Of a stretch of DNA of 64,000 bases, positions 6,271 through 63,957 are shown piece after piece. Below the pieces are notes generated by a model. The model had not been told where the DNA came from. It saw only the letters and a list, made by a program, of their open reading frames with translations, and made no database searches. The position numbers and the translations under genes were made by a program. Position 1 is the stretch's first letter, and each line of letters begins with the position of its first letter. Source of the DNA: Pseudopelagicola sp. (GTDB taxonomy: Bacteria > Pseudomonadota > Alphaproteobacteria > Rhodobacterales > Rhodobacteraceae); contig JAPHRE010000013.1 of the NCBI GenBank assembly GCA_026195905.1, positions 62,001-126,000 on the forward strand, read 5' to 3'.

Positions 6271-9077
6271 GAAATGGCCCTTTCGACGCCGCGCTCAATG
6301 GCTTCGCGCAGTTTTTTCTCAAGCGTCTGTTGCTTGGCTTTGGAATGGAATTTCAGGCCAAACATATCTTTGACGTAGAAACTATCGACGACCTGTTCGC
6401 CGTAGGTCGCGATCACGGCCGAGGCGATGTAGACATTGTTATTTGCAAGCGTACGGGTCAGATCGTGCAAGAGGCCGGGGCGGTCGCGCGTATCAACTTC
6501 GATAATAGTATAAATTTCAGAGCCATCATTGTCGAAGATGATCGTCGTCGGCACCCTGAAGGCGCGTTCGCGCTTTTTGATGACATCGCGCGATTTCATG
6601 GCTTCGGTTGCGATGACTTCACCTTTGAGGGTTTTCTCGATCATCTGGCGCAGACGCTTGAGGCGCCCCGCCTCGTAGGGCGAGCCGTCGGCATCTTGAA
6701 TCCAGAATGCGGCGGTCGCGTAGCCATCCTTGGAGGTAAAGGTCCGTGCATCCACAATATTGGCCCCGACAAGGGCCAGCGCACCACACATGCGGCTAAA
6801 TATGCCGGGGTGGTCCGCCATAGCAAAGCAGGCGCGGGTGGCGTCGCGGTCTTCGTCCGGGTGCAGGTCGATGCGAATTTCATCATCGTCTATATCACGA
6901 AGCAGTTCTGCAAAGACCTTATGTGCCGTGATATGCAGCCCCTGCCAATAGGGATCGTAATGGCGTGTCGTTTCGCGCTTGAGGTCTTTCGCGGGCCAGT
7001 CGGCAAGCTCTGCGCGTAGTTTCTTTTTCGCCTCGGTGCCGCGGTTTTCGCGATTGATCGCTTCCATCCCGTCTTCGAGAGCAACGCGCGTCTGGCGATA
7101 GAGCGCCCGCAAAAGAGCGGCTTTCCAATTGTTCCAGACATCGGGACCAACGCCGCGAATGTCGCAGACCGTCAGCACCGTCAGCAGGTTGAGCCGGTCG
7201 ACAGAACGCACGGCCTTGGCGAAATCGCGCACGGTGCGCGGGTCGGCGATGTCGCGTTTTTGGGCGGTATCGGACATTAGAAGGTGATAGCGCACAAGCC
7301 ATTCAACGGTTTCGCATTCGCTTTTCTTGAGGCCAAGCGCGGGGGCCACCCGACGGGTGATCTGTGCGCCGAGGATGGAGTGATCGGTTTCGCGCCCCTT
7401 GCCAATATCGTGCAATAGCATGGCGACCATGAGCACCCGGCGGTTGATGCCAGTCTTGATGATCTCGGATGACAGCGGCAGCTCGACCTCAAGCTCTTCG
7501 CGTTCGATTTGAGCGTAGTTCGAGATGACCTGAATCGTGTGCTCGTCGACCGTATAGGAATGATACATGTTGAATTGCATCATCGCGACGACCGGGGCGA
7601 ATTCGGGGATGAAGGCGGCAAGAACGCCAAGTTCATTCATACGGCGCAAGGCGCGTTCGGGGTTGCCATGCTTGAGGAGCAACCCAAGAAAGATCTTCTG
7701 TGCCTCTTTGTTGGCGCGAAAGCTATCATCAATCAGGTGTAGGTTGGCGGTCACGAGGCGCATGGCATCGGGGTGGATCAAAAGCCCGGTGCGCAGACCC
7801 TCTTCGAACAGGCGCAAGAGGTTGAGCGGGTCTCTTAGGAAGTCGTCGTCGTCGATGATTGCAAGGCGGTTGTTGATGACTTTGTAGCCGGGCTTGATCC
7901 GGCGGCGGCGACGGAAAAGGCGTTCCATAAGTGGCGCTGCCTTGGCGTGGTCGGCCTCAAGTTTGGTCAACAAGATACGGGTGAGATCGCCAACGGATGT
8001 TGCATGGCGGAAATAGTCCTGCATGAAATGTTCGACCGCGCGCCGCCCTCCTTTGTCGAGATAGCCCATGCGCTCGGCCACCTGCACCTGCAAATCGAAA
8101 GTCAACTGTTCGACGGGACGGCCGGAAAGGATATGCATGTGACCCCGCACCGCCCAGAGGAAGTTCTCGGCCTGTGCAAAGCGGTCATATTCATCCTCGT
8201 GAAACAATCCCTTGTCGAGCAGGTCTCGGGCTTGTTGGACGTGGTAGACATATTTGGCAATCCAGAACAAGGATTGCAGATCGCGCAGGCCGCCTTTGCC
8301 CTCTTTCACGTTGGGCTCGACCATGTAGCGTTCGCCCTGTTTCTTATGGCGTTCGTCACGTTCGTTGAGTTTGGCCTCGATGAATTCGCGCTCAGTGCCT
8401 TCGAAAAGCTCTTTTTCCAGCCGAGTGTTCAATTCGTCGTCGAGGGGCGCGTGGCCGCGCAGGAAGCGGTTTTCAAGAAGCGCCGTTCGGATGGTGAAAT
8501 CCTCGGCTCCAAGGCGCAGGCAGTCTTTGACTGTGCGCGAGGCATGGCCAACCTTGAGTCGCAAGTCCCACAGGATGTAGAGCATCGTTTCGATGACGCT
8601 TTCGGCCCAGGGGGTGATTTTGTAAGGGGTCAGGAAAAGCAGGTCGACATCGGATTGAGGCGCCATTTCGCCCCGCCCGTAGCCACCCACGGCAAAGAGC
8701 GCGATACGCTCGGCCTCTGTCGGGGTTGCGAGCGGATGCAGGTAGGTTGTCGCGACATAATGCGCAGCACCGACAAGGCAGTCCGTGACCCAAGTATAGG
8801 CGCTTTTCATCGCCCGCGCATCGCGCGGTTTGGCCAGAAACCCGGCCTCAATCGCGGCATTGGCCGATTTACGCACGGCGAGCAGATGCTGGACAACCGC
8901 GTCGCGAAACGCCCGATCCTCCGCATGTTCTTGACGCGCGGCGCTTATAGCGTCGAGCAATGCCTTGCGGTCGAGAATGTCATCTGCCGGGCTCACGAGC
9001 GCGACGGTTGGGGCGGGTAGAGGGCCAGCGTCCGGTTCAGAAACCGAAGCCGCCGAAGCTTTTTGGCGCAGGGTCAA
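6267..9077 (-). CDS. glnD: Bifunctional PII uridylyltransferase/uridylyl-removing enzyme
   Basis: GlnD is the cytoplasmic glutamine sensor that uridylylates PII proteins when nitrogen is short and removes UMP when glutamine is high. In order, the 936-aa protein shows the nucleotidyltransferase motif GGYGRGEMAPQSDVD (about residues 130-145), a helical PII-uridylyltransferase domain, an HD domain with LLHDIGKGRETDHS, and two C-terminal ACT repeats (DHPGIFSRMCGAL and DRPGLLHDLTRTL). The TTG start at 9077 overlaps the upstream gene by 41 nt and lacks a clear ribosome site. A GTG at 8996 is the alternative. murJ follows with a 4-nt overlap. Confidence 0.93.
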   Translation of the reverse strand: MTLRQKASAASVSEPDAGPLPAPTVALVSPADDILDRKALLDAISAARQEHAEDRAFRDAVVQHLLAVRKSANAAIEAGFLAKPRDARAMKSAYTWVTDCLVGAAHYVATTYLHPLATPTEAERIALFAVGGYGRGEMAPQSDVDLLFLTPYKITPWAESVIETMLYILWDLRLKVGHASRTVKDCLRLGAEDFTIRTALLENRFLRGHAPLDDELNTRLEKELFEGTEREFIEAKLNERDERHKKQGERYMVEPNVKEGKGGLRDLQSLFWIAKYVYHVQQARDLLDKGLFHEDEYDRFAQAENFLWAVRGHMHILSGRPVEQLTFDLQVQVAERMGYLDKGGRRAVEHFMQDYFRHATSVGDLTRILLTKLEADHAKAAPLMERLFRRRRRIKPGYKVINNRLAIIDDDDFLRDPLNLLRLFEEGLRTGLLIHPDAMRLVTANLHLIDDSFRANKEAQKIFLGLLLKHGNPERALRRMNELGVLAAFIPEFAPVVAMMQFNMYHSYTVDEHTIQVISNYAQIEREELEVELPLSSEIIKTGINRRVLMVAMLLHDIGKGRETDHSILGAQITRRVAPALGLKKSECETVEWLVRYHLLMSDTAQKRDIADPRTVRDFAKAVRSVDRLNLLTVLTVCDIRGVGPDVWNNWKAALLRALYRQTRVALEDGMEAINRENRGTEAKKKLRAELADWPAKDLKRETTRHYDPYWQGLHITAHKVFAELLRDIDDDEIRIDLHPDEDRDATRACFAMADHPGIFSRMCGALALVGANIVDARTFTSKDGYATAAFWIQDADGSPYEAGRLKRLRQMIEKTLKGEVIATEAMKSRDVIKKRERAFRVPTTIIFDNDGSEIYTIIEVDTRDRPGLLHDLTRTLANNNVYIASAVIATYGEQVVDSFYVKDMFGLKFHSKAKQQTLEKKLREAIERGVERAIS

Positions 9078-10200
9078 GAGTCACCACTTGTTTGTTGCGG
9101 ATCGAGACAACTTCCAGCCCGCGTTCGTTCGTTCCATCGGATCGCAGGCGGAAAATACCGTTCACCCCCTGAAATCCAGCCCCTTGTGTCAGGGCGCTTG
9201 TGGTCAGTGCATTACTTTTACCGGCCTTGACCAGTGCGCCGATCGCCGCAATGCCATCATAGGCCAGCCCGCTTAGGTTATGCGGCAGCCCGCCATAGGC
9301 TTTGGCGTAGCGGTCGAGATAGGCCCGGCTTAGCGTCGCGTCGGGGCGGGCAAACCATGCGCCTTGCACGCCGGGAAGGGAGACGGTCTGAGACGGTAAA
9401 TCCCAACGTGTCAGGCCGATGTATTGGATCGTCTGTGGGTCAATTCCGGCTTCGGGAAGCATCTGTGAAAAGAGAGGGAGCGCACCAGAGGTCGAGGCGG
9501 TCAGGAAAATGGCATCGGGGGCGTTCTGTTCAACGGCGGCCTTAATCTCGGCGACGGCGGCGATAACGCCATCCTGCGAATATTTATAGGCGACTGTGCC
9601 GGCGCTTGAAGCGGTCGAGGCGTTGATCGCGTTGATGATCGCATTGCGCCCGACCTGACCGGGCACGGTATCGGCGTGCACGATGAGGATATTCCGCTTG
9701 CCTTGGCTCGTGGCATATTGAACCAGCCGCTTGGCGGTATTGTCAAAGGTTGCGCCGAGGACGAAGACATTGCCACCTGCGATTTCGGTGTTGTTGGAAA
9801 AGGTCAGAACGTTGACGCCATTGCCCGCAACCGCCTTGCCAGCAGCATTGGCCGCACCCCCGTATAGGGGGCCGACGATGATTTTGGCCCCTTCGGCAAC
9901 GGCTTTTTGCGCAGCAGAGGCCGCCGTCGCGGGTTTGCCCGCCGTGGAGTAGACGCGCAGGTCAATCTTAACGCCGTCGAGATCGGAAATTGCGAGGCGG
10001 GCGGCATTCTCAAGGCTTTGGGCGATCAGGGCATCGCCCGAATCCCCCGACCCGGAGGGCACAAGAAGCGCGACCGGCACAGGGCTCGATGTCGAGATCA
10101 CAGGGCCGGTGGATGGCACACAGGCGGTCAGGCCAAGCAGGGCCAGCGTTGCAGCAGCCCCTTTCAGAAACCGGCGGGCAGGGCTAGAACGGAAAAACAT
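9037..10200 (-). CDS. Periplasmic-binding-fold lipoprotein, penicillin-binding protein activator (LpoA-like)
   Basis: The 387-aa protein has a basic N-terminus, a hydrophobic stretch and the lipobox LTAC with Cys27, so it should be an exported lipoprotein. The remainder resembles type I periplasmic-binding folds (ALLVPSGSGDSGDALIAQSLENAARLA; later FLTASTSGALPLFSQML). The C-terminal half of LpoA, which activates PBP1A, belongs to this group. The TPR domain of enterobacterial LpoA is absent, as in the shorter alphaproteobacterial forms. A solute-binding role is an alternative. It precedes glnD on the same strand and diverges from rsmI. Confidence 0.78.
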   Translation of the reverse strand: MFFRSSPARRFLKGAAATLALLGLTACVPSTGPVISTSSPVPVALLVPSGSGDSGDALIAQSLENAARLAISDLDGVKIDLRVYSTAGKPATAASAAQKAVAEGAKIIVGPLYGGAANAAGKAVAGNGVNVLTFSNNTEIAGGNVFVLGATFDNTAKRLVQYATSQGKRNILIVHADTVPGQVGRNAIINAINASTASSAGTVAYKYSQDGVIAAVAEIKAAVEQNAPDAIFLTASTSGALPLFSQMLPEAGIDPQTIQYIGLTRWDLPSQTVSLPGVQGAWFARPDATLSRAYLDRYAKAYGGLPHNLSGLAYDGIAAIGALVKAGKSNALTTSALTQGAGFQGVNGIFRLRSDGTNERGLEVVSIRNKQVVTLDPAPKSFGGFGF

Positions 10201-56372: not shown

Positions 56373-57211
56373 CAGTCGGCCTTTGCAAGCAGGGCGCGGC
56401 GTGCCTTGGCGAGGCGGCGCACGGCGTCAAGAACATGGGGCGTGCCGCAAATCCATGTATTGTCGGCAACGCTTTCGCCTGTCGCCGTGCCAGTGAGGGC
56501 GCGCAGGGCGGGGTGGTCGAGAATGTCCTCGGCGCGCGAGTGGCCGTCATAGGCGGGGGCGGAAACGATGAGGTCGGGCTGTGCCATAATCAACAATTCT
56601 AGCGGCATTTCCCCGCCATAGGCAAAGCCTGCCTGGGTTGCGACATTGGTAAAGCCGGCGGTTTTGAGGATTTGGCCGGGGAGCGAGTTCTCGCCCGGCG
56701 TCCAGCCATTGGCGTTGTAGATCGCGGCGCGGGGGCGGGGGCCGTCGATCTTGCGCAGCTCTGCAAGGTCAGATTCGAATTGCGCCCGTATCTTGGCGGC
56801 GGTGGCGTCGCGGCCAAGGACGCGGCCAATCTCGGAGATACGTTCGGGGATGGCGTCCAGGGTCAGGGCAGGGGCCATGATGTGCACCGGAATGCCAAGG
56901 CGGCGCAGCATGTTCACGGTAGCGCGGGAGCTATAGGTTCCCGCAAGCACGAGGTCGGGATTGAGGAGGTAGATTTCCTCGGCCCCGCCGTGGTTGATCG
57001 GGAAATGTGCGGCCTCGGCGGTCATCGCGGAGGCGCGTTTATCGCGGGAGATGTAGGACACAGATTTGAGCTGTCCCGGCGCGGCCAGCAGCATGGCAAG
57101 CTGATCCGTGCACAGGTTGAGCGAGACGACGCGCCGTGGCGCGTCGGCCCATGCTGCCGCGCTGGAAAGCACCAGCGCGGCGAGCAGGCTTATGAGTTTA
57201 GAAGGACGCAC
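56372..57211 (-). CDS. btuF: Periplasmic corrinoid-binding protein
   Basis: The 279-aa protein has a signal peptide (LISLLAALVLSSAAAWA) and a type III binding fold (RRVVSLNLCTDQLAMLLAAP and YLLNPDLVLAGTYSS). It carries corrinoids from BtuB to BtuC. The GTG at 57211 gives a standard signal peptide and overlaps btuB by 14 nt; an ATG at 57253 would lengthen the n-region. No clear ribosome site is visible, consistent with coupling to btuB. Confidence 0.88.
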   Translation of the reverse strand: MRPSKLISLLAALVLSSAAAWADAPRRVVSLNLCTDQLAMLLAAPGQLKSVSYISRDKRASAMTAEAAHFPINHGGAEEIYLLNPDLVLAGTYSSRATVNMLRRLGIPVHIMAPALTLDAIPERISEIGRVLGRDATAAKIRAQFESDLAELRKIDGPRPRAAIYNANGWTPGENSLPGQILKTAGFTNVATQAGFAYGGEMPLELLIMAQPDLIVSAPAYDGHSRAEDILDHPALRALTGTATGESVADNTWICGTPHVLDAVRRLAKARRALLAKAD

Positions 57212-59030
57212 GGATACCGAAATACAGGCTGCGGCCCGGCGTGCCATAGCCACCAGCGGTTTCGTAGTCCTTGTCCAATAGGTTCTCGATGCGCAGGTAG
57301 ACGGCGGCGGAGGCGCTCAGGTCGTAGGACAGGCCCGCATTGACCAGCGCGTAGTTCGGCAAGGCGACGGTCGCGTCGTCGAGGTCCACACGGTCGGCGA
57401 GGTAGTTGACGCTTGCAAAGGCATTGATGCCGTTGGCAAAGGCCGCATCGACGCCGATGTTCAGGTCATGCTTGGGCACACGACCTGCGCGGCCGGTGCT
57501 ACGCACGGCGTCGGTGTAGGTATAGGCGCCGGTGATCGTCCAGATATCGTTCAGAGCGTATTCGCCCGAAAGCTCGACGCCTTTGGTCTTGAGGTCGGTC
57601 TGACCATAGCAGCCCCATGCGCTTGCGCAGGTGCCGATATAGGCACCGCTATAGACGATGTTGTTCTTGATATCGTTGTAGAAGGCGGTGGCGCGGGCAA
57701 AGCCACGATCGCCAAAGCGTTTCTCAAGACCGACTTCAAAGGTCGTGCTTTCCTCGGGGAGGAGGTCGGGGCGACCATACACCGAGGTAAGTTGATAGAG
57801 CGTGGGCGGCTTGTAGCCGGTCGCGGCCTGCGCGCGCAGGGTCATGTCGCCGCCAAGCTGATAGGCGAGGGCGAGGCGACCCGTGACCTTGTTGTCAAAG
57901 TTGCTCAGATCGTCGTAGCGCAGTGTCGCGGTGATATCGAGTGCCTCGGTCGGGGCATAGGCCAGTTCCACGAAGGCGGAATCGGTCGTGGCGGTAAAGC
58001 CGTTGGCCGTTTCCTTGGTATGCGTCAGGCCGACGGTCCAGTCGGTGGTTACGCCGGTGTTGAAGGCGGCGGTGTATTCGGCGGTCTGGCGACGGCCATT
58101 GAACGGGGTGGTGAAGCCGTTGGAATAGCTGATGCGATCAGTGTCGAACACGGCATAGCTCAGGCTATGGGCGATTGCGCCGGTCGTGAAGTCGGCAAAG
58201 ATGCGGCCACCGACCGATTCGCGGGTGTTTACCTCGTCATAGGGTAGGGCACCGTCGCCGGTAAATTCGTCGAATTCGCCTTCGGCGTCGATGGCCAGAA
58301 GGTTAAAGCCGACGCGTGCAGTATCGGTCAGGTCATAGGCAAAGAACAGGCTGCCGCGGGTTTCGGTGTAGCCGTCCGCCTCGGTGCCTGCGCTTCGGGC
58401 CGAGAAGCCGTCAGTGTCAAAGCGGCTCAGTGAGAAGCCGATCTCGGTGCGCTCGTCCAGATAGCCGAAGCTGAGGTTGGCGCGCTTGGAGTTGTAGGTG
58501 CCGTATTCGGTACCCGCGATGCCGGAGAAGCCGTCTTTGGTCGGGCGGAACGACTCGAGGTTTACGACGCCGCCCACGGCGGTTGCGCCGTAGCGAGCCG
58601 ATTGTGAACCCTTGAGGATTTCAACACGGCTTAGGCCGGTGCCGGTCATGCCGCCCCAGTCAAAGCCGTTGCCCGAGCTTGCCGGGTCGGAGACGTCGAT
58701 GCCGTCGAAATAGACCGGCACATAGCCCGCGCCGAGGCCACGGATGCGTAGGGTCGTGCTCGTGCCGGGGCCGCCATTGGCGGTGACGGACACGCCGGGC
58801 AGGCGCGCGAAGGTATCAGCGAGCTTGGTTTCGGGGGCCTTCTCGATTTCGGCCTCGACGAGGACTTCGGTGGTTGTGCCCGAACGTTTGAGTTCGGTGG
58901 CGGTCTCGTTCGAATAGAGGGTAATCGCGTCGAGGTCGTAGGTCTCTTCGGCCAGGGCGGGGGCGGGGGCCGTGGTAAATCCGGTGGTGAGGGCGGTCAT
59001 TGCGGCGGATGCCAGGAGTGTCCGTTTCAT
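57198..59030 (-). CDS. btuB: TonB-dependent corrinoid receptor
   Basis: The 610-aa outer-membrane protein has a signal peptide, a TonB-box region (LDAITLYS), a plug domain (TFARLPGVSVTANG, LRIRGLGAGYVPVYFDGID and ILKGSQSARYGATAVGGVVN), and a beta-barrel ending in aromatic Phe (LYFGIRASF). Size matches BtuB. A cobalamin riboswitch lies upstream, so expression should fall when adenosylcobalamin is plentiful. It is the first gene of btuB-btuF-btuC-btuD-cbiZ. Confidence 0.93.
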   Translation of the reverse strand: MKRTLLASAAMTALTTGFTTAPAPALAEETYDLDAITLYSNETATELKRSGTTTEVLVEAEIEKAPETKLADTFARLPGVSVTANGGPGTSTTLRIRGLGAGYVPVYFDGIDVSDPASSGNGFDWGGMTGTGLSRVEILKGSQSARYGATAVGGVVNLESFRPTKDGFSGIAGTEYGTYNSKRANLSFGYLDERTEIGFSLSRFDTDGFSARSAGTEADGYTETRGSLFFAYDLTDTARVGFNLLAIDAEGEFDEFTGDGALPYDEVNTRESVGGRIFADFTTGAIAHSLSYAVFDTDRISYSNGFTTPFNGRRQTAEYTAAFNTGVTTDWTVGLTHTKETANGFTATTDSAFVELAYAPTEALDITATLRYDDLSNFDNKVTGRLALAYQLGGDMTLRAQAATGYKPPTLYQLTSVYGRPDLLPEESTTFEVGLEKRFGDRGFARATAFYNDIKNNIVYSGAYIGTCASAWGCYGQTDLKTKGVELSGEYALNDIWTITGAYTYTDAVRSTGRAGRVPKHDLNIGVDAAFANGINAFASVNYLADRVDLDDATVALPNYALVNAGLSYDLSASAAVYLRIENLLDKDYETAGGYGTPGRSLYFGIRASF

Positions 59031-59179
59031 GGGTCTATCCTTCCTTCGGGCCGAGGCCCGTGCGTTTGTATGGTGTCATAAGGAAGGACGCAGTCCTCCC
59101 GTGACGGTGAGTGACTGTCACCACAACGGAAGGTCCGTCGTCTGAACGCGCCCCGCGTCCCGACTGGGTGAACATCCTG

Positions 59180-59335
59180 GCAGGTCTCCTGACTTGCGGG
59201 TCAACGCTCCCTCGGGCCTTCCCATCCCCCCATGAGGGAGAACAGTGGCATATGCCGAGGTCGCTCGCCGCTTACAGTTGCGGGGGCAGTCGAGGGTTTG
59301 CCGCGATGGGCGGCGCACCTCGTTCCCTTTTCACG
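59180..59335 (-). promoter_or_regulatory. Cobalamin riboswitch upstream of btuB
   Basis: On the minus strand, in order, are AAAAGGGAACGAGGTGCG, CCCCCGCAACTGTAAGCGG, GCCACTG, GATGGGAAGG and the B12 box GACCCGCAAGTCAGGAGACC. This is the full ordered set of conserved cobalamin-riboswitch blocks. Ends are approximate. Between it and btuB, GGAGGACTGCGTCCTTCC (59082-59099) could form a hairpin that helps switch expression. Confidence 0.95.
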
Positions 59336-59440
59336 GACCGCTAAGCAGTCCGACCAGAACGGGGGGAAATGGCCAGACCGGAGGCGCAAAGTCAATGCGC
59401 AATCCGGTCTGGTTCAGTGTTTCAAGATCGCGGGCGTTGC

Positions 59441-59474: not shown

Positions 59475-60233
59475 TCAGGGCGCGCGCAGACCGAGCTTTT
59501 CAAGGCGCGCGGTGGTATCGGCCGTCCAGCGGGATTTCAGCGCGGCATTGTTTTCACGGCGCAGGCCGATGGCGTTGAGAGCCTCGAATTTGGCCGATTC
59601 GGCAGCCCCGAAAGAAGCGGCGACGCGCGGGAACCAGTAGTCGACAGAGGCTTGCAGGGTCGCGCCCGTCTCGGTTTCCATGAGCTTTGCGACGCCCTCT
59701 TCGGCAAGTTCGGCATGGCGTTGCTCGACCGGTTGGATGGCGCGGAAGGCCTCGGCCAGCGGTTGATAGGAGACGCGGGCGAGGTCCGAGAGTTGCACGG
59801 TGACGGCGCGGCCCATGAGGAGGTTCATCACCACCGCATCGGACCAGCCTGCAAGCGGATAGTTAAACACGGCAAGGCGCATGTCCTGTTCGGTGCGCGT
59901 TGTGCCGATATCGGCGTCGCGCTCAAGCCGTGCGGTCCAGGGATGGTGCGTTGCGTAGCGGGCGGTATCCGCGCCGAAATCGCCCATGATCGACAGAACC
60001 TTGTCGGCGTTGTCGGTCTTTTCAAGCACGATGCGCGCGGCGGCGATACGTTCCTTGATGCCGGGCCCGTTGTTGATGATGTCGGCAAACCCGGCCGCCC
60101 CGGCGAGCGAGGAATCGACAAAGCTTGCCATCAGTTTCATCAGCTCGGCGCGGTAGCGCGGCGGCACGTTGGAGGGGTTGGTGAGAACCCCGCCTTGGGC
60201 GAGGTAGTCTTCGATCGGCATATCGTCGGCCAT
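59475..60233 (-). CDS. Extra PaaA/PaaC-family ferritin-like protein with degenerate diiron site
   Basis: The 252-aa protein follows paaE by 13 nt with AAGGAGAA before its ATG. Aligned by eye with PaaA of this window, FNYPLAGWSDAVVMNLLMG matches [20 protein letters not shown] and PVEQRHAEL matches the second ExxH (EESFH). The first ExxH (DEAGH in PaaA) reads LEKTD, His replaced by Asp. The preceding Glu region (HSEVVG) reads DSSLAG. It keeps about half the diiron ligands and is probably a structural or regulatory subunit. PaaC, already present, also lacks a full site. Confidence 0.78.
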   Translation of the reverse strand: MADDMPIEDYLAQGGVLTNPSNVPPRYRAELMKLMASFVDSSLAGAAGFADIINNGPGIKERIAAARIVLEKTDNADKVLSIMGDFGADTARYATHHPWTARLERDADIGTTRTEQDMRLAVFNYPLAGWSDAVVMNLLMGRAVTVQLSDLARVSYQPLAEAFRAIQPVEQRHAELAEEGVAKLMETETGATLQASVDYWFPRVAASFGAAESAKFEALNAIGLRRENNAALKSRWTADTTARLEKLGLRAP

Positions 60234-60246
60234 AGCGCGGTTCTCC

Positions 60247-61323
60247 TTACTGGTCGTAATCGACGGTGACGGCATCGGTCACCGGGTAGGCCTGGCAGGA
60301 GAGGACATAGCCCTTTTCCACCTCATAATCCTCAAGCGCGTGGTTGGAGACCATTTCGACCTCGCCTTCGAGCACGCGGCAGCGACAGGTCGAGCAGACC
60401 CCGGCCTTGCAGGCGTAGGGCGCGTCCATCTTGTTTTCGAGCGCGGCATCGAGGATCGACATATCCTTGGGCATGTCGATGGTTTGGGTCGCGCCATCGA
60501 GGGTAATCGCGGTGCGGGCCTGATTGGCCCCGGCGGCGGCGTCTTTGGAGACCGCTTTGCGCTTGGCGCGGCCCGGTTGCGACGAGGCGAACAGTTCAAA
60601 CTTGATCTGCGCATCGTCGAGACCTGCGCCGCGCAGGGCTGAAGCAATGCCAAGCATCATGGGTTCGGGACCACAGATGAAGGCGGTGTCGACGTGGTCG
60701 ATGTCGATCCAGCCGGTTTTGAACAGCTCGGCGCATTTTTCCTCGGTCACGAGGCCGGTAAAGAGGTCGATGTCCTGGGCGTCGGATTCAAGCACATGGA
60801 TGACGTTGAAGCGGCCCATGTAGATGTTCTTGAGGTCTTCGATCTCTTCGCGGAACATGATCGTGGTCACGGCCTTGTTGGCGTAGACGAGGGTAAATGT
60901 CGAATTGGGTTCAAGCGCCAGCGTGGTTTTGATCAGCGACAGGACCGGGGTAATGCCGGAGCCGCCCGCAAAGCCAAGATATTGCTTTTCCTGCGTGGCA
61001 TCGAGGGGGGTAAAGAAGCCGCCCATCGGGGGCATGGCCTCAAGGCGGTCGCCGACCTTGAGATCTTCGTTGGCCCATGTCGAGAAGGTGCCGCCATCGA
61101 CACGTTTGATGCCGACCTGAAGCCGGCCTTCGTCCTTGCCCGCACAGATCGAATAAGAGCGGCGCAGTTCTTCGCCGTCAAAGTCGCGCCGGAAGGTCAG
61201 GTATTGGCCTTGGGTAAAGTCGAATTCCGTCGCCGCGCCATTGACCGGCTTCAGGGTTACGACAACGGCGTCGCGGATCGTCTTGTGGATGTCTGTGACT
61301 TCCAGTTCATGGAAACGTGCCAT
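60247..61323 (-). CDS. paaE: Phenylacetyl-CoA epoxidase reductase subunit PaaE
   Basis: The 358-aa protein has a ferredoxin-NADP reductase module (LRRSYSICAG for FAD, GGSGITPVLSLIKTTL for NAD(P)). Its C-terminal plant-type 2Fe-2S domain carries the cysteines in CKAGVCSTCRCRV and SCQAYPV. It passes electrons from NADPH to the diiron subunit PaaA. It follows paaD by 12 nt. Confidence 0.95.
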   Translation of the reverse strand: MARFHELEVTDIHKTIRDAVVVTLKPVNGAATEFDFTQGQYLTFRRDFDGEELRRSYSICAGKDEGRLQVGIKRVDGGTFSTWANEDLKVGDRLEAMPPMGGFFTPLDATQEKQYLGFAGGSGITPVLSLIKTTLALEPNSTFTLVYANKAVTTIMFREEIEDLKNIYMGRFNVIHVLESDAQDIDLFTGLVTEEKCAELFKTGWIDIDHVDTAFICGPEPMMLGIASALRGAGLDDAQIKFELFASSQPGRAKRKAVSKDAAAGANQARTAITLDGATQTIDMPKDMSILDAALENKMDAPYACKAGVCSTCRCRVLEGEVEMVSNHALEDYEVEKGYVLSCQAYPVTDAVTVDYDQ

Positions 61324-61335
61324 CGGGTCTCCTCC

Positions 61336-61809
61336 CTAAATGCACTTGAAATATTCAAACGGTTCGAGGCAGTCCTTGCAGCGCCATTGCGCCTTGCAGG
61401 GGGTCGAACCGAACTGGCTCAACTTTTCGAGGTGGGTGCCGCCGCAATGCGGGCAGCGGGTTGGCCCGCCCGCCGGTTGCGGCGGGGCAATGCCGTATTC
61501 CTCGAGCGCGGCGCGTGCCTTGTCGGACATCCAATCGGTTGTCCAGGCGGGGCTAAGTTGTTGTTTAAGCTCGATATTGTCTAGTCCATGATCGCGCAGG
61601 CAGGTCTCGATATCCATGTTGATCATCGAGGTTGCCGGACAGCCCGAATAGGTCGGCGTGACCGAGACAACACAGGTTTCGCCATGAAAGGCGACATCGC
61701 GGATGATGCCGAGGTCCACCAGCGTGATGACCGGGATTTCGGGGTCGGGAATGGTTTCCAGCCATTCCCAGACCTGATCGGTGCTGGGCCGGGTCATGGG
61801 CGTTGTCAT
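61336..61809 (-). CDS. paaD: Phenylacetyl-CoA epoxidase assembly protein PaaD
   Basis: The 157-aa protein joins a MIP18/DUF59-type domain (IPDPEIPVITLVDLGIIRDV and YSGCPATSMINMDIE) to a C-terminal zinc-ribbon-like module (CPHCGGTHL and CKAQWRCKDC). It is thought to mature the Fe-S or diiron centres of the complex. The ATG at 61809 is chosen at the family start; an open frame upstream overlaps paaC. Confidence 0.94.
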   Translation of the reverse strand: MTTPMTRPSTDQVWEWLETIPDPEIPVITLVDLGIIRDVAFHGETCVVSVTPTYSGCPATSMINMDIETCLRDHGLDNIELKQQLSPAWTTDWMSDKARAALEEYGIAPPQPAGGPTRCPHCGGTHLEKLSQFGSTPCKAQWRCKDCLEPFEYFKCI

Positions 61810-61822
61810 GAGTGTGCCTCGC

Positions 61823-62587
61823 TTACCACTCGCAGCCGGGATAGGCGCGTTGCAGCCATTGCATCGTCGCCAGAAGGTGCCCGAGATGTTCGGTATGCAT
61901 CCGCCCGGTGCGCCCGCCCTTGTGGGCATAGCGGCTTTCGGGGAGAGTCAGGGTTGCTTCGGCAAGGACGCGGGTCACAAGCGCATCGTATTCGGCGCGC
62001 AGGGTCGACGGATCGGGCGCAATGCCAGCAGCGGCCATCGCGGCGTCGGTCTCGTCGCTTTCAAACATCTCGCCCACATAGGGCCAGAGATATTCAAGCG
62101 CGGCTTGCATCCGGTTGTGGCTTTCTTCGGTGCCGTCACCAAGCCCGACTACGGTATCAGCGGAGCGCTCGACATGGTAGGCGACCTCTTTGGAGGCCTT
62201 GGCGGCGATGGCGGCGACGGTCTCATCGGTTGAACCCATCAGGCGCCCCATGAGGACCGATTGAAAGGCGTCAAAGAGGAATTGGCGCATCAGGGTCTGG
62301 CCGAAATCGCCATTGGGCAGCTCGGTCAGAAGCACGTTGCGGAAATCCCATGCGTCGCGCAGGAAAGCGAGATCATCAGCGGTCTTGCCCTCGCCCTGCA
62401 CTTCGGCGGCATAGCCGAGCCACATCTGGGTCTGGCCGATGAGATCAAGCGCCGTATTGGCAAGCGCAATATCCTCTTCGAGGACCGGCGAATGACCGCA
62501 CCATTCCGAGACACGGTGGCCGAGGATCAGGGTATTGTCGCCCTGACGCAGCAGGAATTGCAGCAGGAGATTTTTATCGACTGTCAT
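61823..62587 (-). CDS. paaC: Phenylacetyl-CoA epoxidase structural subunit PaaC
   Basis: The 254-aa ferritin-like protein begins NLLLQFLLRQGDNTLILGHRVSEW and has IALANTALDLIGQTQMWL and KASKEVAYHVERSADTV, typical of PaaC. It partners PaaA in the alpha/beta complex but has an incomplete metal site. Its ATG shares a base with the paaB stop (TAATG). Confidence 0.95.
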   Translation of the reverse strand: MTVDKNLLLQFLLRQGDNTLILGHRVSEWCGHSPVLEEDIALANTALDLIGQTQMWLGYAAEVQGEGKTADDLAFLRDAWDFRNVLLTELPNGDFGQTLMRQFLFDAFQSVLMGRLMGSTDETVAAIAAKASKEVAYHVERSADTVVGLGDGTEESHNRMQAALEYLWPYVGEMFESDETDAAMAAAGIAPDPSTLRAEYDALVTRVLAEATLTLPESRYAHKGGRTGRMHTEHLGHLLATMQWLQRAYPGCEW

Positions 62588-62871
62588 TACATGTGCCCCA
62601 CTTCATCGGGAATGTCGAAGAAGGTCGGGTGACGGTAGACCTTGCTTTCGGACGGTTCGAAAAGCGGACCCTTGTCGCCCGGCGCGGTGGCGGCGATGTG
62701 GCGGGCCTCGACGACCCAGATCGACACGCCTTCGTTGCGGCGGGTGTAGACGTCACGGGCGTTTTTGATGGCCATATCGGCGTCAGGGGCGTGCAGCGAT
62801 CCAACGTGACGGTGGCTCATGCCATGTTGGCCACGGATGAAGACTTCCCAGAGGGGCCATTCGTTTTTCAT
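62587..62871 (-). CDS. paaB: Phenylacetyl-CoA epoxidase subunit PaaB
   Basis: The 94-aa protein matches PaaB throughout: EWPLWEVFIRGQHGMSHRHVGSLHAPD and SIWVVEARHI. It bridges PaaAC units in the epoxidase. It lies 21 nt after paaA. Confidence 0.95.
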   Translation of the reverse strand: MKNEWPLWEVFIRGQHGMSHRHVGSLHAPDADMAIKNARDVYTRRNEGVSIWVVEARHIAATAPGDKGPLFEPSESKVYRHPTFFDIPDEVGHM

Positions 62872-62892: not shown

Positions 62893-63885
62893 TTATTCGG
62901 CGGCAACTTTGCGCGCGGCTTTCTTTTCGGCGTGGGCGAGAAGCCCGTCCCGGACCCATGCGCCGTCTTCCCAAGCGGCGACGCGGTTTTGCAAACGATC
63001 GACGTTGCAGGGGCCGTTGCCCTTGATGACGTCGAAGAATTCCGACCAGTCGGGATCGGAGAAATCATAGTGACCGCGTTCCTCGTTCCACTTGATGCCC
63101 GGATCGGGAAGGTCGAGGCCGAGATATTCGATCTGCGGCACGGTCTGGTCGACGAATTGCTGACGCAGCTCATCGTTGGATTTGACTTTGATCTTCCAGG
63201 CCATCGACTGTTCCGAGTGGGTCGAATCCGCATCAGACGGGCCGAACATCATTATGGCTGGGAACCAGAGGCGGTTGACCGCGTCCTGGGCCTGTTTCTT
63301 TTGTTCGGGTGTCCCAAAGGCCATTTTCATGATTGCATGATAGCCTTGGCGGGCGTGGAAGCTCTCTTCCTTGCAGATGCGGATCATGGCGCGGGAATAG
63401 GGGCCATAGGAGGTGCGCTGAAGCGCGACCTGGTTGACGATGGCGGCCCCATCCACAAGCCAGCCCACCGCGCCGATATCTGCCCAGTTGAGGGTCGGGT
63501 AGTTGAAGATCGAGGAATATTTCATCCGGCCTTCATGCAGCAGGCGCACCAGTTCGTCGCGCGTTTCGCCCAGAGTTTCGGCAGCGGAGTAGAGGTAGAG
63601 CCCGTGACCGGCCTCGTCCTGCACTTTGGCGAGAAGGATCGCCTTGCGCTCCAGGGTTGGGGCGCGGGTGATCCAGTTGCCCTCGGGGAGTTGGCCGACG
63701 ACCTCGGAGTGGGCGTGCTGGCCGATCTGGCGGATCAGGGTGGCGCGGTAGTCATCAGGCATCCAGTCGCGCGGCTCGATCTTGATATCGGCGTCGATCT
63801 TGTCCTGAAAGGCACGTTCCTCGGGGGACATGTCTTCGCGTTTATGGACGCCCTTGTGGGCAGTCTTAATCATCTGAGCATACAT
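62893..63885 (-). CDS. paaA: Phenylacetyl-CoA epoxidase catalytic subunit PaaA
   Basis: The 330-aa diiron oxygenase has both ExxH motifs ([13 protein letters not shown] and [12 protein letters not shown]) and [12 protein letters not shown] for an early Glu ligand. It epoxidises the ring of phenylacetyl-CoA with O2. The ATG at 63885 ([13 protein letters not shown]) follows AGTGGGAGGAGACCCC; the frame is open to 63957 without homology. It begins paaABCDE plus the extra PaaA-like gene. Confidence 0.97.
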
Positions 63886-63913
63886 TTGGGGTCTCCTCCC
63901 ACTATTGAATGAC

Positions 63914-63957
63914 GTGCGGTTTGGTCCGAAAACCGGTGCCCAGTTTTCGGGCCGCAC
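63914..63957. repeat. Two-tier hairpin between thiolase and paaA
   Basis: GTGCGG (63914-63919) pairs with CCGCAC (63952-63957), enclosing a perfect 8-bp stem CCGAAAAC (63926-63933) with GTTTTCGG (63943-63950). It begins one base beyond the thiolase stop codon. There is no T-run, so termination is doubtful; an mRNA-stabilising or attenuating element, or a dispersed repeat, fits better. Confidence 0.55.

Follow-up and report, generated by a model that had tools for sequence, protein, structure and literature searches.

The window, a stretch of 64,000 nucleotides, carries on its minus strand a phenylacetyl-CoA epoxidase operon in the order paaA, paaB, paaC, paaD, paaE, followed by one further gene whose 252-aa product is referred to here by the working name X (Table 1). 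The gene is an intact frame that begins 13 bp past the paaE stop codon, with a GGAG in between, in agreement with an earlier note on this DNA that had placed a protein of this length directly after paaE. The open frame of paaA has a GTG start, and its likely start is an ATG near position 63885. A cobalamin riboswitch (Rfam RF00174, 128 bits) lies downstream of X, ahead of a gene for a TonB-dependent receptor, and X thus appears to close the operon. Beyond the receptor lie genes that read as BtuF-, BtuC- and ABC-ATPase-like from their open reading frames. Judged by sequence, X is a sixth gene of the epoxidase operon, beyond the canonical paaABCDE set.

Table 1. Features of the epoxidase operon in the window and of related loci (L numbers denote loci outside the window).
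Feature	Location	Strand	Basis or remark
X, PaaA paralogue with a metal site predicted to be dead, 252 aa	59475..60233	-	Intact ORF; PF05138 78 bits; AlphaFold2 pLDDT 93.3; Foldseek PaaA 3pvr/3pw8, TMq 0.83
Codons E170 to H173 of X (PaaA E155xxH158), two kept ligands	59715..59726	-	79/79 distinct X
Codon K72 of X, at PaaA bridging ligand E72	60018..60020	-	Lys in 79/79 distinct X
paaE, reductase subunit	60247..61323	-	TIGR02160 418 bits, slightly below cutoff 420.8
paaD, start uncertain (open frame extends to 61929)	61336..61800	-	TIGR02159 177 bits, whole frame 61336-61929
paaC, structural subunit	61823..62587	-	TIGR02158 297 bits
paaB, bridging subunit	62587..62871	-	TIGR02157 143 bits
paaA, catalytic subunit	62893..63957	-	TIGR02156 505 bits; six of six iron ligands present
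TonB-dependent receptor	57198-59030
Cobalamin riboswitch	59162-59373	-	Rfam RF00174
Y	L147 10867-11697	-	PF05138 clade, 5/6 PaaA ligands
Y	L148 16922-17722	-	PF05138 clade, 5/6 PaaA ligands
Y	L149 10096-10902	-	PF05138 clade, 5/6 PaaA ligands
Y	L150 6928-7749	+	PF05138 clade, 5/6 PaaA ligands
Y	L152 9679-10479	+	PF05138 clade, 5/6 PaaA ligands
Y	L159 7300-8112	+	PF05138 clade, 5/6 PaaA ligands
Small Y-linked protein	L147 10436-10861	-	Relatives in L148, L149, L150, L152, L159
W	L158 10231-10953	-	PF05138 clade with six ligands
W	L157 about 8446-10140	+	PF05138 clade with six ligands
X-like gene, Bartonella plasmid	L204 8977-9783	+	First of tandem pair
X-like gene, Bartonella plasmid	L204 10187-10993	+	Second of tandem pair

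A profile search with PF05138 (PaaA_PaaC), a check that the earlier note had proposed, identified X as a member of this superfamily (78.3 bits, E = 7e-22; gathering cutoff, 28.5). Its scores against the equivalog models for PaaA (TIGR02156, 46.1 bits; cutoff, 280) and PaaC (TIGR02158, 28.8 bits; cutoff, 133.35) lay far below threshold. AlphaFold2 modeling from 28 X rows (mean pLDDT 93.3, pTM 0.90) predicted the ferritin-like fold of PaaA for X alone: the top Protein Data Bank matches in Foldseek were E. coli PaaA chains (3pvr/3pw8; TMq up to 0.83, rmsd 2.0), and SSO1313, PaaC and BoxB ranked below them. X and PaaA share the FNYP and SYxP regions, the second ExxH and the operon, and of the alignment over the FNYP and ExxH regions that had been drawn by eye, the FNYP and second ExxH parts are seen. 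X differs from PaaA in having a longer loop around residues 87 to 119 and in stopping earlier, so that the C-terminal segment of PaaA has no counterpart in the alignments. SSO1313 of Sulfolobus (4mud), a PaaA-like protein compared with X by fold and identity rather than by ligands, has a similarly short PF05138-type fold (TMq 0.76 to 0.77) but is only 19% identical.

An excerpt of PMC4498308 gives the iron ligands of PaaA as E42, E72, H75, D126, E155 and H158. In an alignment that is gap-free on both sides, these positions correspond to S42, K72, N75, G141, E170 and H173 of the window's X, which thus keeps two of the six ligands named in that excerpt (E170 and H173) and has Lys in place of the bridging Glu. 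We extended the comparison to 79 distinct X sequences, obtained from 85 extracted proteins by dropping two short ones and removing duplicates. Position 72 was Lys in all 79, position 75 was Asn in 62, His in 16 and Ser in 1, and position 141, the counterpart of D126, was Gly in 62 and Ser in 17; E71, E170 and H173 were each invariant, as were 52 residues in total. Position 42 was more variable (Glu in 60, Ala in 14, Ser in 4 and Asn in 1), and E42 and a His at position 75 occurred together in 13 sequences.

An alternative register, in which the first ExxH of PaaA becomes ExxD (E71-K-T-D74) as the earlier note had read it, is one residue off. A gap-free count from the shared proline (P57 of X) puts PaaA E72 and H75 at K72 and N75, and we rejected the ExxD register because the H75 position lies 18 residues from that proline in each of PaaA, PaaC, X and Y, and because 16 of the 79 sequences do have His at position 75. 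The same note's early Glu is indeed lost in the window, where it is S42, but the loss is not general, since most X proteins retain E42. Its "half a diiron site" was right in that the site is broken; measured against the excerpted ligand list, a third of the ligands is left rather than half, and the loss of the Asp ligand had been missed. It had also named a non-ferritin fold or the presence of six correct ligands as grounds for abandoning its proposal; the predicted fold is PaaA-like and the six ligands are absent. The bridging Glu has become Lys, and therefore a PaaA-type diiron center should not form in X; from its residues, X is presumably metal-free. Among the other family members, compared over the 54-row tree set described below plus the window PaaA, Y proteins keep all ligands but D126, which is Thr (6/6), W proteins keep all six (10/10), and PaaC keeps H158 in 11 of 11 sequences and D126 in 6 of 11.

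Maximum likelihood analysis of 54 PF05138 proteins resolved one clade for each of X, PaaA, PaaC, Y and W, with support of 99/97 for X and 100/100 for PaaC, and X fell outside the PaaC clade. Two sets make up the X clade, one partnered with Y (84/84, 4 rows) and the other with paaABCDE (96/84, 12 rows). The order among the clades is unsure because of long branches. On the basis of this tree we rejected an origin of X as a recent PaaA duplicate, although some of its deep branches are long.

We then asked how widely X accompanies the epoxidase genes. A search confined to close relatives yielded 71 loci, mainly from Rhodobacteraceae, and X stood straight after paaE in nearly all of them. Over the 91 loci with X, three show no paaE (L071, at a contig edge, L098 and L103), leaving 88, at least four of which repeat a genome already represented; the paaE-X gap was at most 50 bp in 86 of these 88 (median, 12), the exceptions being L017 (180 bp) and L049 (81 bp). 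Among 198 Rhodobacteraceae genomes, one per genus, X was present in 38 (as fragments only in G516 and G527) and PaaA/PaaC-grade matches in 90, after removal of 6 weak cases from 96 listed. All 38 X-bearing genomes fell within these 90 (hypergeometric probability 4e-16, ignoring kinship), and the remaining 52 of the 90 are without X. Within the window's own genus, 8 of 24 relatives carry it. The survey that the earlier note had called for revealed a strong association of X with paa operons, and its view that X lies outside the canonical paaABCDE set yet is tied to these operons in many genomes was upheld.

The association extends to plasmid records. Mesorhizobium and Paracoccus denitrificans records have the order paaABCDE-X-paaZ, and a Ruegeria record has paaABCD-X, in which an unnamed gene for a 2Fe-2S reductase occupies the paaE position; in all three, X is annotated "Phenylacetic acid catabolic protein." By sequence match, as distinct from gene context, X-grade proteins (61 to 65% identity) were also found on Rhizobium, Shinella, Phyllobacterium and Sinorhizobium sojae records, and the matches listed for S. 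meliloti were at the PaaA level only. One genome titled uncultured Sulfitobacter (G060; L082 4918-6759 and L206) has a split operon, with paaABCD-paaZ on one contig and paaE-X on another and no paaE beside paaABCD-paaZ in the 17 kb read. This arrangement fits a link between paaE and X, but one break separating paaD from paaE would give the same picture.

To follow gain and loss we used a quick tree of PaaE with SH-aLRT support only, comprising 91 rows (79 with X, 12 without) from 98 loci after L071, L087, L098 and L103 were dropped, identical rows were merged and the window was added. The presence or absence of X requires four changes on this tree. The X-less genome G020, an X-less clade of seven and L171, on a long branch, nest inside the X-bearing part. 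G020 is the nearest relative of the window on the tree; its paaE DNA is 89% identical and is followed by the same riboswitch-TonB flank, and X is absent between the two. We read these cases as three losses, with the reservation that change counts alone cannot separate gain from loss. X is missing from 52 of the 90 Rhodobacteraceae genomes with an epoxidase and appears to have been lost three times, and it is therefore dispensable.

Dispensability notwithstanding, X is by dN/dS estimates under purifying selection. The ratio for the window's X against seven relatives was 0.11 to 0.27, compared with 0.04 to 0.18 for PaaA, PaaC and PaaE; these values are rough, many pairs having a dS close to or exceeding 1 and some of those for PaaA including uncertain 5' ends. 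X also diverges faster, with a mean distance over 62 loci of 0.30 against 0.19 for PaaA and 0.22 for PaaC. Over the same loci, distances of X correlated with those of PaaA (r = 0.36) and PaaC (r = 0.74), but we did not use these correlations as evidence because shared descent alone could produce them.

Scans across the class disclosed a second genomic context. X scored above 300 bits in at least 9 of 385 alphaproteobacterial genomes, the next match being 88 bits; at most seven candidates per genome were scored for X and at most six for Y, so that all counts are lower bounds. Four of the nine (G000, G368, G185 and G364) have paaA, paaB, paaC and paaE, with paaD observed only in G000 and G364. 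The remaining five (G116, G124, G159, G221 and G407) carry Y, and a sixth Y-type genome is a metagenome-assembled genome (MAG) labeled Gammaproteobacteria (G061). PaaB was found in none of the six Y-type genomes, nor was any PF05138 protein above 98 bits, so they are without canonical paaA and paaC. Y occurs in at least 5 of the 385 genomes, exactly those five that also bear X, a co-occurrence with a probability of about 2e-9 (calculated by hand over four families, ignoring kinship).

In these genomes a divergent flavodoxin gene adjoins X at all six loci (Pfam Flavodoxin in the four tested). Relatives of paaG, paaI and paaK lie 3' of X in all five long loci, with paaJ in two, and the short X locus of G061 has paaG relatives; L103 and L146 are the same G221 locus and were counted once. 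Y and a small protein are encoded side by side in 6/6, with a PaaX relative near Y in four. The small protein is 126 to 146 aa long in the four aligned, and the one tested had no Pfam match. X and Y are about 4.5 to 16.4 kb apart in four of the genomes and on separate contigs in two, a looser arrangement than one would expect for partners in a single complex. The AlphaFold2 model of Y was weak (pLDDT 70.5, 6 rows) and was not put to fold search. With five of the six PaaA ligands, Y is a candidate alternative phenylacetyl-CoA epoxidase, and the Y-type genomes suggest a second epoxidase architecture without PaaA, PaaB or PaaC. PaaA stands beside X in paaABCDE loci and Y is present in the Y-type genomes; X is thus found together with a PaaA-type catalyst in either context, in 38 of 38 Rhodobacteraceae and 9 of 9 class-sample genomes.

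An accessory subunit, whether regulatory or protective, as the earlier note had offered, or serving in docking, remains the best reading of X. With moderate confidence, and on the strength of sequence comparisons, we propose that X serves phenylacetyl-CoA epoxidation as an accessory subunit that is not itself an oxygenase; a protein that is selected, has fixed substitutions and travels with PaaA-type catalysts is quite plausibly explained most economically in this way. X would then be a PaaA-fold pseudo-oxygenase, its bridging Glu turned to Lys, working beside a PaaA-type catalytic subunit, which would be PaaA in the window and Y in the second lineage. Perhaps it sits at the electron-donor side of the complex, where it could tune or gate electron delivery or coupling. 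We place it there because its gene adjoins that of an electron donor, paaE or flavodoxin, in every well-flanked locus bar one Bartonella plasmid; this adjacency may be accidental. Both the physical association and the role are what we infer from gene context.

Another explanation for these data could be that X is a PaaC-like scaffold, with no part in electron flow, which pairs with PaaA or, in genomes lacking PaaB and PaaC, with Y to form a heterodimer or an alternative isoform. We consider this unlikely. PaaC (1otk) is itself a ligand-poor PF05138 relative in the same operon, PaaA is described as insoluble without PaaC in an excerpt of PMC4498308, and the six Y-type genomes are without PaaB and canonical PaaC. 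Against this, PaaC is also present wherever X sits in a paaABCDE operon, X and PaaC form separate clades and keep different ligand positions (E155 and H158 in X), and the predicted fold of X is nearer PaaA than PaaC (TMq 0.83 versus 0.70 to 0.73). The fixed Lys and the retained Glu/His pair suggest more than scaffolding.

Binding of a CoA thioester, either phenylacetyl-CoA or the reactive epoxide, would make X a chaperone or buffer that protects the cell or the enzyme. The invariance of R102, R105, D117 and R119 across the 79 distinct X sequences and a Phe in 70 of them at the position matched to PaaA F108 are consistent with such binding, but X has no equivalent of the PaaA C-terminal segment, which bears the L286 door according to an excerpt of PMC4498308, and we regard the idea as improbable.

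Still less probable, and proposed by analogy, is a metal-free redox protein resembling the class Ie ribonucleotide reductase R2, in which a Lys ammonium would occupy a metal position and flavodoxin or PaaE would supply oxidant or electrons. Every distinct X has Lys at the bridging ligand, and flavodoxin is the neighbor of X in all six Y-type loci; NrdI is flavodoxin-like. As excerpted, PMC11846895 describes replacement of Glu ligands by V/P/K or Q/S/K in class Ie R2, and in R2e-QSK a Lys that replaces a metal ligand, with its ammonium at the Mn1 position and NrdI as a required partner. The ferritin-like site with Glu changed to Lys is common to both, but judging from residue numbers in that excerpt the R2e Lys lies in the second ExxH motif, whereas that of X lies in the first and its E170xxH173 is intact. 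The R2e Tyr that becomes DOPA had no counterpart identified in X, and a search of paaE-X loci turned up no flavodoxin. The resemblance is a likeness only, and we do not assign X to class Ie R2. A broader conjecture, and a long shot, is that X founded a group of lysine-substituted, metal-free ferritin-like redox subunits. These would serve both PaaABCE and a minimal epoxidase of Y, X and the small partner fed by flavodoxin, the latter standing in for PaaABCDE in certain alphaproteobacteria and in at least one MAG labeled Gammaproteobacteria, and X with its flavin partner would parallel R2e with NrdI.

The suggestion in the earlier note that X is an oxygenase for another arylacetyl-CoA draws on the predicted PaaA fold and on the 13 sequences with both E42 and H75, but it is hard to sustain when all 79 have Lys for the bridging Glu and Gly or Ser for the Asp ligand, and we hold it highly improbable. 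That X is a decaying relic of PaaA, as its apparent losses within the X-bearing clade and its faster evolution might suggest, is scarcely credible given its dN/dS, its invariant residues and its separate clade.

Among multicomponent diiron epoxidases PaaABCE serves as a model, and an excerpt of PMC7497051 describes how its reductase PaaE binds the remaining subunits as still unresolved. A PaaA-fold gene with a putatively dead metal site, anchored next to the reductase gene across many alphaproteobacteria, would be a testable missing piece of this complex. X is annotated in most of the records inspected as "Phenylacetic acid catabolic protein," and selection appears to maintain it across numerous marine and soil bacteria. 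Its invariant Glu-to-Lys exchange may offer another place to seek metal-free chemistry in the ferritin fold. No description of the gene appeared among the literature entries listed, and it may still have been reported.

Two further kinds of PF05138 locus were observed. The clusters encoding W include a PaaE-like reductase along with apparent ring-cleavage and CoA-ligase genes, the last two guessed from their frames. In addition, a tandem pair of X-like genes follows a PaaX-type regulator on a Bartonella plasmid whose record shows no further PF05138 gene; K72, E170 and H173 are kept in both X-like proteins.
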